A model generated the notes under the pieces. It was not told where the DNA came from, searched no databases, and worked only from the letters and a program-made list of their open reading frames with translations. The position numbers and the translations under genes are program-made. A DNA stretch of 64,000 nt from Alphaproteobacteria bacterium (GTDB lineage Bacteria; Pseudomonadota; Alphaproteobacteria; SHVR01): contig SHVR01000011.1 of assembly GCA_009694185.1 (NCBI GenBank), positions 1 through 64,000 on the forward strand, given 5' to 3'. Positions 10,327 to 55,295 of this stretch are shown piece after piece. Position 1 is the first letter of the stretch. Each line of letters begins with the position of its first letter.

Positions 10327-10503
10327 CGGCAGGCGGATGGCCGCGCGAGGGCTTCGGCTCCTTGTCCGGCTTGGCGGCGGATTTGTGGTTTCGGCGCTTG
10401 GGTGTCATCGAAATACATTCCGTTCGGCAAAAGTTTCTCGCGAGATATTGGTCTGGCATCCTACGCCAGAGCCGCTAAAAGTATCCAAAAAGCGCCGCCC
10501 CCC

Positions 10504-10682
10504 CTACTCCCACTCTATGGTGCGGGCCACTCTATGGTGCGGGGTGGCTTCGAGGCGATGTCGTCGGTCACCCGGTTGATGCCGCGCGCTTCGTTGATGA
10601 TGCGGGCCTTGACCCGGCCGAGAAAGCCACGATCGAAGGGGTAATAGTCGGCGGTCATGCCGTCGGTGGAGGTCACCGCGCG
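10504..10682 (-). pseudogene. guaA: 3'-terminal fragment of guaA (GMP synthase C-terminus)
   Basis: The minus strand reads [38 protein letters not shown] and SKPPRTIEW, the conserved C-terminal end of GMP synthase, about 58 codons long. No upstream guaA sequence (ATP-pyrophosphatase or amidotransferase domains) precedes it. The native ending EW-E-stop is at 10504-10509, but a 17-bp duplication just before it shifts the frame to a TAG at 10515. The fragment is presumably a copy, with the functional guaA elsewhere. The 3' end of guaA is a known target of genomic-island integrases. Confidence 0.75.
10510..10543. repeat. Perfect 17-bp tandem duplication at the guaA terminus
   Basis: CCACTCTATGGTGCGGG occurs twice with no gap, at 10510-10526 and 10527-10543. 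It covers the last codons of the guaA fragment. With one copy the protein would end RTIEWE-stop, as in intact GMP synthases. Two copies give RTIEWPAP-stop. Confidence 0.9.
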
Positions 10683-10752
10683 TGGCGCGCCGGCAAGATC
10701 GGGCGCCTTAAGGAGGTCGGAGCCCGAGTGCCCCGAACCTCGCTTTGCTTCC

Positions 10753-10880
10753 TCAAAGCACGCCTTCGATATCGGTTTTCGAGAAATCATCGCCGACATA
10801 CAGCAGGCGGCAGGCATGTTCCTTCGCCACCTCATAGGCGTAGCAATCCCCGAATTAGACCGTCTTATGGTCCAAATCAA
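10753..10880 (-). pseudogene. C-terminal relic of a VapC-type PIN-domain toxin
   Basis: After an in-frame TAA at 10855-10857 the minus strand reads [20 protein letters not shown], then [13 protein letters not shown] and a TGA at 10753. This matches the end of PIN-domain toxins (NFGDCFAYALAK..., GNDFxxTDI), including the conserved GD acidic pair. The preceding HKTV before the TAA may also belong to it. The catalytic N-terminus and any VapB partner are missing. Confidence 0.6.
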
Positions 10881-11055
10881 CGACCCCCAGAGGGGAATAT
10901 CTCCCTACTCCCGCTCGCGTTTCCCGATGACGTTGCCATGGCCCCGAGGCGGGGATATTAGGCCTTCGAAATAATCGCAAAACGCGCGCCGTCATAGGCG
11001 CATCCGCGAAGACGGGTTCGGGGGCGATGCCGGTACGCATGCTGAGCCTGAGGGA

Positions 11056-11988
11056 CTACCGCGCCGGCGCGTATTTACCGGTCAATTGCGGGGTCGGCGT
11101 ATCGAAGCCCTTGTTCTGGCGATCGAGACGGGTCTCCCTGGACCAGGTGCGCTTGAGCTCGTCCTTCACATTGAAGGCGAACCGGCCGCACCCCTCGACC
11201 TCGAGCTCCACCTTGTCGCCATCCTGGAACGAACTCAGCCCGCGATGGTTGGTGCCGGTCGCCAATATGTCGCCCGGCTCAAGCGTGTGGATCGACGTCG
11301 CCCACTCGATGCAGCGCGGGATCTGGTGCGCCATGTCGCTGGTATTGAAGTTCTGCTTGAGCTCGCCATTGACCCAGAGGCGGACGGAAAGACGATGGGG
11401 ATCGGCGATCTCGTCGGCCGTCACCAGATAGGGGCCGATCGGCGCGAAGGTGTCGCGCGACTTCATCTGGAAGAAGCTGTTGTTGGCGGGCACCAGGCCG
11501 CGCGCCGAGCCGTCGATGAAATTCACATAGCCGAACACATAGCTCATGGCGTCTTTGGCGGCAACCCGGCTCGCGCGCTTGCCGATCACCACGGCAAGCT
11601 CGGCCTCGCCCTCGAAGATCGTGGCGGGCACATCGGGCAGCACCATGGTATCGCCCGGTCCGATCACCGCGCCGGGTAGCTTGTGAAAGCCGTTGATCGG
11701 TGCCGGCGCCGAACGGGTACCGTCCTCCATGTAATTGACCGCCATGCAATCGATGGTGCCGGGGCGCGGCAGCGGCGGGCGCAAGCGGACACTGGCAAGC
11801 GGCACACCCGCGCCATCGGTCACCGCCTTCTCCAGGCGGCCGCGATAAGTGGCGAAGCGCTCGATCAGGCCGCCGATCAGATTGCCGGGCCCGGTATGCG
11901 GAATGTCGCCGACCACGGCCATGACATCGACGACCGCGTCGCCCTTCAGCACGCCCAATCGGAAATCGTTGAAATAGACCAGCTTCAT
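11056..11988 (-). CDS. Fumarylacetoacetate hydrolase (FAH) family protein
   Basis: A 310-residue member of the FAH superfamily, whose members hydrolyse C-C bonds or hydrate or isomerise acyl-pyruvate-like compounds with a divalent metal. The C-terminal catalytic part has the metal-binding EGEAELAVVIG, and later FIDGSARG, MKSRDTFAPIGPYLVT, GDILATGTNHRGL. The start at 11988 has AAGGGGAAC at the right distance; a longer reading would run back over the next gene. It is divergent from the SDR gene, with 103 bases between. The substrate is unknown. Confidence 0.85.
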   Translation of the reverse strand: MKLVYFNDFRLGVLKGDAVVDVMAVVGDIPHTGPGNLIGGLIERFATYRGRLEKAVTDGAGVPLASVRLRPPLPRPGTIDCMAVNYMEDGTRSAPAPINGFHKLPGAVIGPGDTMVLPDVPATIFEGEAELAVVIGKRASRVAAKDAMSYVFGYVNFIDGSARGLVPANNSFFQMKSRDTFAPIGPYLVTADEIADPHRLSVRLWVNGELKQNFNTSDMAHQIPRCIEWATSIHTLEPGDILATGTNHRGLSSFQDGDKVELEVEGCGRFAFNVKDELKRTWSRETRLDRQNKGFDTPTPQLTGKYAPAR

Positions 11989-12003
11989 GGCGTTCCCCTT
12001 GTA

Positions 12004-12032
12004 TCGTCCAACCGGACGAGCGGCACTATACA
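12004..12032. promoter_or_regulatory. Inverted repeat and possible -10 box between the FAH and SDR genes
   Basis: TCGTCC and GGACGA form six-base arms around a four-base loop at 12004-12019, and TATACA follows at 12027-12032. This lies in the 103-bp divergent region and could be an operator with a -10 element for the plus-strand SDR gene. No clear -35 is visible. Confidence 0.25.
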
Positions 12033-12091
12033 GCCCCCCGCGCCGGCCGCAGAATAGGTGCCCGGAACACCCAAGACGAGGGGGAAATGCC

Positions 12092-12856
12092 ATGCGCTTC
12101 CAGGACAAGATTGCCGTCATCACCGCCGTAGCCAGCGGCATCGGCCGCGCGAGCGCCGACATCATGGCGAGCGAGGGCGCCATCATCATCGGCATCGACA
12201 ATGACAAAACGCGCCTCGACCGGGCGGTGGCCCAGATCAAGGCCGCCGGCGGGCGCGCCGAAGGCCGGATCGTCGATGCCCTCAATGGGGCGCTAGTGGA
12301 CGCGGCCGTGGCGGACATCGCCGGCACCCATGGCCGCATCGACATCCTGCTCAACGCGGTCGGCGGCAGCACGATCATCGCCAAGCCGGCGGCCATCGTC
12401 GAGGAATTGACGCTCGGCGATTGGCAGCGGCTGATTCAGTTCAACCTGGATGGCACGTTCAATTTCTGCCATGCGGTGACGCCGATCATGAAACGCCAGG
12501 GGAGTGGCAAAATCGTCAACATCTCGTCGATCGCCGGCCGCGGCCTCAGCCCATCGAGCAGCACCGCCTATGCCGCCGCCAAGGGCGGCATCATCGCCTT
12601 TACCCGCAAGCTCGCCTACGAGCTCGGACCATCAGGCATCAACGTCAACGCCATCGCGCCGAGCCTGACGCTCTCCGAGCGCTTGCAGCCGCGCTGGCAG
12701 CAGCAGTCGCCCGACGACCAGGCTGCCGCCATTGCCCAGGTGCCGCTCCGGCGCATCGCCGAGCCGGCCGACCAGGCGCGCGTGATCTGCTTCCTCGCCT
12801 CATCCGACGCCGATTTCGTGACCGGCCTCACCATCGACGTCACGGGCGGAAATTAG
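12092..12856 (+). CDS. Short-chain dehydrogenase/reductase (SDR)
   Basis: A 254-residue classical SDR predicted to oxidise or reduce an alcohol/carbonyl with NAD(P). The cofactor motif reads TAVASGIG at 11-18, with Ala12 in place of the first glycine of TGxxxGxG. NAVGG stands where NNAG is usual. The catalytic residues S145-146, Y160 and K164 (AYAAAK) are present. The ATG has GGGGGAAA upstream. Its 3' end overlaps the convergent amidase by 17 bases. The reaction cannot be named. Confidence 0.85.
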   Translation: MRFQDKIAVITAVASGIGRASADIMASEGAIIIGIDNDKTRLDRAVAQIKAAGGRAEGRIVDALNGALVDAAVADIAGTHGRIDILLNAVGGSTIIAKPAAIVEELTLGDWQRLIQFNLDGTFNFCHAVTPIMKRQGSGKIVNISSIAGRGLSPSSSTAYAAAKGGIIAFTRKLAYELGPSGINVNAIAPSLTLSERLQPRWQQQSPDDQAAAIAQVPLRRIAEPADQARVICFLASSDADFVTGLTIDVTGGN

Positions 12857-53591: not shown

Positions 53592-53640
53592 GCGGTGACG
53601 GGGAGGCCGGCGCGGTGACGGGGAGGCCGGCGCGGTGACC
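53592..53640. repeat. 20-bp tandem repeat, 2.5 copies, upstream of the cupin gene
   Basis: GCGGTGACGGGGAGGCCGGC occurs at 53592-53611 and 53612-53631, followed by the first nine bases or so of a third copy. The 222-base gap around it holds no gene that I recognise. The repeat lies 38 bases before the cupin ATG and could affect its leader. Confidence 0.85.
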
Positions 53641-53677: not shown

Positions 53678-54172
53678 ATGCCGCATGCGGCAATTCGTGG
53701 CCACGCTGTCGTAACGCAACCGGGCGAGGGCCCGTCCTATTGGCAGCCGTTGCCGGCCAACGGGCACGCCGATCCCGCCCTGTTTCCAGCCAACACCGGC
53801 TTCGACGGCCTGTCCCTGGGCTTCCAGACCGTGGCAGCCCGAAGCCGCATCCGCGAGCATTCCCACGGCGACCAGATCGAGCTGCAGATCTGTTTTCGCG
53901 GCCAGGGCCGGGTGATGGTTGACGGCGTTGCCCACAAGCTAGTCCCTGGCACTGCCTGCTTCCTCGGCTACGATGTCAAACATGAGATCATCAATGAGGG
54001 CGACGACGAGTTGGTCATGCTGTGGGTCATCTCGCCAGCCGGCCTGGAAGATTTCTTCCGCGCCATCGGTCGCGCGCGCGACGCGGGCGAGCCGGCACCG
54101 CCGCCCTTTTCGCGCCCCGCCGATGTCGTGGCGGTCGAGCGCAAGATGGGTATGAACGATACGGTGGCCTGA
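53678..54172 (+). CDS. Cupin-domain protein
   Basis: A 164-residue single-domain cupin. Motif 1 is REHSHGDQIELQICFRGQG, giving His and Glu metal ligands; motif 2 is VPGTACFLGYDVKHEIIN with the last histidine. Such proteins bind a metal ion and act as isomerases, dioxygenases or sensors. GGGAGGG lies upstream of the ATG. No partner gene points to a substrate. Confidence 0.8.
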   Translation: MPHAAIRGHAVVTQPGEGPSYWQPLPANGHADPALFPANTGFDGLSLGFQTVAARSRIREHSHGDQIELQICFRGQGRVMVDGVAHKLVPGTACFLGYDVKHEIINEGDDELVMLWVISPAGLEDFFRAIGRARDAGEPAPPPFSRPADVVAVERKMGMNDTVA

Positions 54173-54189
54173 CAGGCTGTCGGGGAGCC

Positions 54190-54408
54190 CTACCCCCCGA
54201 CCACCTGGCTCACTTCCGCGTCGCTCGGAAAGCGGCCCTCCTTGAGTTTGGAGAATTTGAGCACGCCGTCGACCGTGATCTCGAAGGCACCGTTCTTCGA
54301 TTTCACCAGTTTCACGTCGGCCTGGCCGACGCGCGCGATCAGGTCCCTCGCACGGAGGGCGCGCGGCTCATAGTTTCAAGACACGCAATAGGCGATATGA
54401 ACTTCCAT
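54190..54408 (-). CDS. SelW-like (SelT/SelW/SelH, Rdx family) selenoprotein with in-frame UGA
   Basis: A 72-residue thioredoxin-like redox protein read on the minus strand from ATG 54408, with GGAGAGAG upstream. Codon 11 is TGA (54376-54378). If it encodes selenocysteine, the start is MEVHIAYCVS-U-NYEPRALRA, with the family CxxU motif (C8, U11). After the UGA come LIARVGQADVKLVKSKNGAF, EITVDGVLKFSKLKEGRFPS and DAEVSQVVGG, then TAG. The sequence on both sides of the UGA fits the family, including the GxFEITVDG and SKxxGRFP blocks. Length is right for Rdx proteins. Standard gene calling stops at UGA and misses it. Confidence 0.88.
54332..54365 (-). promoter_or_regulatory. Candidate bacterial SECIS hairpin after the selenocysteine codon
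   Basis: Within the coding region just after the UGA, CCCTC and GAGGG form an upper stem with the loop CGTGC; a GC-rich lower stem (GCGCG with CGCGC) can form beyond a bulge. The apical loop begins 21 bases after the UGA, and its second base is G. Both fit the described bacterial SECIS rules (loop 16-37 bases from UGA, G in the first two loop positions). SelB would bind it. Confidence 0.6.
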
Positions 54409-54443
54409 GGCTCTCTCCGGTTGACCAAGTCCGACAGTATGCC

Positions 54444-55214
54444 TCACCGCCAGCCGCCGCCGCCATTCACATAGACCGTGTCGGCGGTCATATATTCCGC
54501 GGCATCGGAACACATGAACAGCACCAGTTCGCCGATCTCCTCGGGCCGGCCGAAGCGTTTCATCGGCACGTCGTTCTTGAACTGCTCCAGCAGCGCGGGT
54601 GGGGTGTTGGCGGCGGCCTGGAAAGGCGTCTCGATCGGACCCGGCGAGATCGAGAGACAGCGGATACCGCGATCGGCGAATTCGCGCGCCACACCCAGCG
54701 TCATGGTCAAGACCGCGCCCTTGGCGGCGGCATAGTGGATCGACGCACCCGGGCCGCCGCGCTTGTGCGACATGCTGGCCATGTTGACGATCACCCCCTT
54801 GCCGTTCGCCAGCATCAGGGGGACCACCGCCTGCATGGCATAGAAAGTGCCCTTGACGTTGAGGTCGAAGGTCTTGTCCATCAGCTCGTCGTCGATCTCG
54901 AGGAACTTGGCGCGCCGGAAGGCGGCACCCGCCGAGTTGAACAAAAAATCGACCCGCCCGAAGGCCGCCTGGGCGCGGCCGACCATGGCATCGACGGCGG
55001 CGCGGTCGGTCACGTCAACGCCAAGCGCCGCCGCCTTGCCGCCGTTCTGGGTGACCTGATTGGCCGTGCGCTCGGCGCCGGCGCCGTCCAGATCGGCTGA
55101 GAAGACGTTGGCGCCCTCGCGGGCGAAGATGAGGGCGGTCGCCCGGCCGATGCCGCTCGCGGCACCGGTGATGACGACCGTCTTGCCGACGAAATAGTCA
55201 GGGGTCTTGGGCAT
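54444..55214 (-). CDS. SDR-family oxidoreductase
   Basis: A 256-residue classical SDR. TGAASGIG at 16-23 binds NAD(P), NSAGA is the NNAG-type motif, and HYAAAKGA supplies the catalytic tyrosine and lysine. GRPEEIGELVLFMCSDAAEY and YVNGGGGW are at the C-terminus. The ATG at 55214 follows GCGAGGAA. The gene lies 35 bases upstream of the selenoprotein gene on the same strand, so they could share a transcript. The reaction is not assignable. Confidence 0.85.
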   Translation of the reverse strand: MPKTPDYFVGKTVVITGAASGIGRATALIFAREGANVFSADLDGAGAERTANQVTQNGGKAAALGVDVTDRAAVDAMVGRAQAAFGRVDFLFNSAGAAFRRAKFLEIDDELMDKTFDLNVKGTFYAMQAVVPLMLANGKGVIVNMASMSHKRGGPGASIHYAAAKGAVLTMTLGVAREFADRGIRCLSISPGPIETPFQAAANTPPALLEQFKNDVPMKRFGRPEEIGELVLFMCSDAAEYMTADTVYVNGGGGWR

Positions 55215-55295
55215 GATTCCTCGCTTCCGTGCCGCCCGACTGTAATCCACGGGACCGGCCCGCGTCAGCCCCCCTGCCTGGGATGCATCGACGTC

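Follow-up and report, generated by a model that had tools for sequence, protein, structure and literature searches.

A 64,000-nucleotide stretch of DNA from an alphaproteobacterial genome, referred to here as the window, carries a short gene on its minus strand (54190..54408) that very probably encodes a 72-residue SelW-like protein with a thioredoxin fold, in which the UGA at codon 11 is decoded as selenocysteine (Sec) through the bacterial SelB pathway. The observations behind this reading are the protein family, the UGA itself, its conservation among homologues, a constraint at the RNA level, and the linkage to Sec machinery across relatives. We infer that Sec is inserted in this organism and that its selA, selB and selC lie in the part of the genome missing from the assembly.

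The Gene and Its Protein Family

The SelW-like gene starts with an ATG at 54408 and ends with a TAG at 54190. Its 72 codons are interrupted solely by a TGA at codon 11 (54376..54378, minus strand), a predicted Sec codon that occupies the place of the second redox residue in a C8-x-x-U11 motif. When this codon is read as Sec, the translated product is MEVHIAYCVSUNYEPRALRARDLIARVGQADVKLVKSKNGAFEITVDGVLKFSKLKEGRFPSDAEVSQVVGG. A Shine–Dalgarno-like GGAGAG (54413..54418, minus strand) was found by direct reading of the sequence 4 bases upstream of the ATG. The coordinates given in an earlier sequence-only reading of this DNA were correct, and the strand, which was left unstated there, is the minus strand; the ATG with a ribosome site and the 72-codon frame with one internal TGA described in it were also borne out. 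Reading the plus strand of 54190-54408 yields an unrelated frame and was rejected. It had been further claimed that a gene call leaves this stretch empty. The ordinary list of open reading frames indeed contains no minus-strand frame over the gene, but the stretch is overlapped by an unrelated plus-strand frame at 54022-54474, which is the only listed frame to do so. Default annotation would overlook the SelW-like gene.

The upstream neighbour is a short-chain dehydrogenase/reductase gene (54444..55250, minus strand; PF13561, 1.3e-66) whose end lies 35 bases short of the SelW ATG. The two genes are possibly co-transcribed. Their pairing is not conserved, as no such dehydrogenase adjoins SelW in most relatives, and no promoter or terminator pattern was found near the SelW-like gene. 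On the other flank lies a cupin gene oriented towards SelW. Upstream of the cupin gene, at 53600-53639, direct reading revealed at least two perfect tandem copies of a 20-base unit, ggggaggccggcgcggtgac. Both neighbours end in ordinary TGA stops (54170-54172 for the cupin gene and 54446-54444, minus strand, for the dehydrogenase), which speaks against a genome-wide reassignment of UGA to tryptophan or cysteine. Nothing was found in favour of such a reassignment, the UGA occupies the redox site in a family in which Sec is known, and selA, selB and selC are retained in relatives that share this UGA. The probability that the genetic code has changed is vanishingly small.

Assignment to the SelW-like (Rdx) family is based on the translation, two profile matches and the alignment of homologues. 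With the TGA read as cysteine, the protein search proposed in the sequence-only reading matches Pfam Rdx (PF10262) at 3e-17, with 63 bits against a cut-off of 22.6. Since this match spans residues 2-70, on both sides of the TGA, the similarity extends through the codon. Chance cannot account for such a score, nor for the TGA shared by all close homologous loci (see below). The protein also exceeds the cut-off of TIGR02174 (57.8 bits vs. 34.2). It remains below that of NF041051 (76.1 bits vs. 88), the SelTWH_Campy (seleno)protein equivalog, so it is related to this group but is not filed there. The proposed SelW/Rdx membership and CxxU motif are thus supported.

A sequence search of solved structures matched SelW-related proteins and, weakly, mouse SelW. 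An AlphaFold2 model, built with cysteine substituted for Sec and with a 13-sequence alignment, reached a mean pLDDT of 90.6. In the model, a strand at residues 2-8 is followed by a helix at 14-28, and C8 and U11 would be placed between them. The best matches of the model in the PDB were 2fa8, 2obk, 2oka and 2p0g, then mouse SelW (2npb) and MIEN1, with E-values down to 1.7e-07. The predicted structure therefore has the SelW-type thioredoxin-like fold with CxxU after the first strand. The motif and the fold suggest a small redox protein with a thiol/selenol role, most likely exerted through the Cys8–Sec11 pair.

Conservation of the UGA Codon and the Predicted Hairpin Behind It

Homologous loci were collected by a scan with one genome per species, in which short conserved peptides served as search patterns and codon 11 was left uncovered. 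TGA was present at codon 11 in all 60 loci obtained, which come from MAGs or from genomes titled Alphaproteobacteria, Proteobacteria or “bacterium”, mostly alphaproteobacterial MAGs. Cultured relatives with this gene include Elioraea tepidiphila (L057) and Desertibaculum subflavum (L020). A genome of the same class (G052, locus L002) provides a further case, which raises the count to 61/61 close homologues; in an aligned sample these are 52–68% identical. Because the search needs short conserved peptides, the 60 loci represent close relatives of the NYEPRALRA type and not the whole family. Within this context, cysteine forms would have surfaced, as the patterns did not span the TGA codon, and none was found among the 60 scanned loci. 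The result agrees with the statement that cysteine forms of SelW-like proteins are few or lacking in organisms that contain Sec (PMC1794560).

The region behind the TGA is under purifying selection. Downstream of the codon, pN was lower than pS in 15 of 15 pairs (e.g., 0.01 vs. 0.24 and 0.07 vs. 0.56), although two close pairs show little difference. The conserved TGA together with this selection rules out, for the family, that the codon is misread in sequencing or simply ends the frame, and either is very unlikely for the copy in the window. The sequence-only reading had itself named homologues with an erroneous or plain-stop TGA as the outcome that would overturn it; the homologues examined display the opposite. 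That the TGA stands for a TGC or TGT misread in sequencing or assembly, and that the product is a plain cysteine protein, can draw on the existence of cysteine forms in the wider family, such as the CTQC form at L003. Nevertheless, this reading is refuted for the close homologues by 61 TGA codons from independent assemblies, and the hairpin of rare codons described below would be purposeless in a cysteine gene; it deserves hardly any credence. The L003 gene (1495-1770) has cysteine at the UGA column and belongs to a genome of the same class without selA. It lies directly behind a large open reading frame that, by eye, resembles a membrane transporter.

A putative bacterial SECIS hairpin follows the UGA at 54345..54359 (minus strand). 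Counted from the T of the TGA as base 0, bases 19-23 (CCCTC) can pair with bases 29-33 (GAGGG), so that a CCCUC/GAGGG stem encloses the loop CGUGC, which starts 21 bases after the UGA. Codons +7, +8 and +9 read CTC, CGT and GCG across 49 distinct sequences, with one exception, GTG at +9. The triplet run CTC-CGT-GCG (54349-54357, minus strand, and the same place in L014-L073) is identical at the DNA level in 48 of these 49 homologues, while nearby synonymous positions vary; the CGUGC loop is likewise identical in 48. The codons that are kept are rare ones: CGT makes up 4% of the arginine codons in the genes of the window, and AGG or AGA, found at codon +10 in 42/49 sequences, together make up 4.5%. 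The locking of these codons is not imposed by the search, because the arginine at +5 is written with all six of its codons across the same sequences.

The stem shows compensatory changes at one pair, 20-32, which occurs as C-G, T-A, G-C, G-T and T-G and is mismatched in 12 of the 49 distinct sequences. The observed pairing was reached by none of 10,000 shuffles, which ignore the relatedness of the sequences. In the RNA of the window, the hairpin is present in the minimum-energy fold with an energy that is ordinary in comparison with shuffles (z -0.56), so the case for it is one of conservation and not of stability. Rfam gave no SECIS match for the hairpin; a single weak match on the other strand was dismissed as chance. 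The predicted hairpin agrees in position and form with the bacterial SECIS elements described in the literature, which follow the UGA immediately and carry a G in a small loop (PMC1088965). In the proposed mechanism, SelB carrying Sec-tRNA-Sec would bind the hairpin that follows the UGA at a distance of 21 bases, Sec would be inserted at this codon, and translation would not end there. The strictly conserved CUC-CGU-GCG can serve as a compact DNA marker for this SelW clade and is a candidate recognition element for SelB.

Selenium Genes in the Relatives and in the Genome Itself

The UGA gene is closely accompanied by Sec machinery in the relatives. Among 35 genomes carrying the UGA SelW gene, selA was found over the cut-off in 32, selB in 27 and tRNA-Sec in 28. 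By comparison, selA occurs in 6 of 57 genomes of the same class without the UGA gene (Fisher p 2e-15 for the 35 carriers and 57 non-carriers, a test that treats related genomes as independent). It is absent from all three class members with a stop-free match, and the 58th genome of the class set, G052, has both selA and the UGA gene. Together with the homologues and the SECIS-like hairpin, this co-occurrence with selA, selB and tRNA-Sec supports the original proposal that the UGA codes for Sec.

The organism's own genome is represented by a 77%-complete MAG, whose 78 contigs add up to 2.81 Mb. The sequence-only reading had predicted selA, selB, selC and selD elsewhere in it. One SelD was found, whereas selA, selB and selC were not found in this incomplete assembly. 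The outcome that the sequence-only reading had named as fatal, their absence from a finished genome, does not apply to an assembly of this kind. All selB matches were below the cut-off and resemble other translation GTPases, and the tRNA-Sec candidates were rejected as tRNA-Ser and other ordinary tRNAs. The SelD domain, the only one over the cut-off in the assembly, is part of a pyridine nucleotide oxidoreductase–SelD fusion (L103, contig 75, 12678-14951, minus strand). The fusion adjoins SenA (10421-11707, minus strand; 500 bits) and SenB (11717-12694, plus strand; 399 bits) in a senABC-type selenoneine cluster. Given this location, the SelD cannot count as separate evidence that Sec is made, although the cluster makes it very probable that the organism uses selenium, and this single SelD may supply the selenoneine and the selenocysteine route alike. 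No selU, through which selenophosphate is also commonly used, was found in the assembly. Formate dehydrogenase is the usual selenoprotein of Alphaproteobacteria, and its Sec form is usual in those that decode Sec. The alpha subunit encoded on contig 54 (18840-20867, L112; 897 bits) has no in-frame stop, so formate dehydrogenase does not supply a second Sec gene.

These results raise the question of whether the gene is a relic, that is, a selenoprotein gene by descent in a lineage that has lost its Sec machinery, so that translation now ends at the UGA, ten residues in. The missing selA, selB and tRNA-Sec would agree with such a loss, and selenoneine synthesis accounts for the SelD. However, the assembly is only 77% complete, and a single gap could remove all three genes, because selA and selB are adjacent in many relatives, sometimes with selC beside them. 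Two relatives with smaller assemblies (G059 and G063) likewise lack selA, selB and tRNA-Sec, while all three are present in G062, G067 and G072, whose SelW genes are very similar; for this reason, little weight attaches to genes missing from a draft assembly. Moreover, the sequence has not decayed, as the frame, the start, the ribosome site and the hairpin are all intact. A relic is very unlikely. It is still less probable, and clearly so, that the organism is truly without selA, selB and selC, has kept its UGA SelW gene under selection, and decodes the UGA in another way. Decoding as Sec by SelB is by far the better account.

Relation to Known SelW-like Proteins

The gene has every testable defining feature of the bacterial SelW-like selenoproteins; its own selA, selB and selC were not found in an incomplete MAG. 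Bacterial SelW-like proteins with CxxU and a SECIS hairpin ranked first in abundance among the selenoprotein families of the Sargasso Sea, with 48 genes (PMC1088965), and SelW-like proteins did so again in the Global Ocean Sampling set, with 427 genes (PMC2398784). A 2022 review lists pfam10262 Rdx with CxxU (PMC9312934). The present gene shares with these marine proteins the Rdx family, the CxxU motif, the single UGA and a SECIS-type hairpin close behind it. No difference in kind was seen; the gene at hand is placed in a genome bin of the Alphaproteobacteria. In a survey from 2006, formate dehydrogenase was the only selenoprotein family counted for this class (PMC1794560), so the present lineages were unrepresented in it.

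Cysteine-containing relatives of known structure, 2fa8 (Atu0228), 2obk, 2oka and 2p0g, have the same fold, with 24–34% identity in the fold match. They differ in having CxxC in place of CxxU, longer chains of about 103–108 residues, and another sequence right after the motif. Mammalian selenoprotein W carries a CxxU motif, and the mouse structure (2npb) shares the fold with 25% identity. In the animal SelW gene, the SECIS does not adjoin the UGA but is located in the 3′ untranslated region (PMC1088965). That default gene calling passes over short selenoprotein genes is illustrated once more by the 60 loci of SelW type, each with its UGA, that came from one scan. The gene adds one more case to a known kind of SelW selenoprotein, and its mechanism holds nothing new in comparison with the bacterial systems already described.
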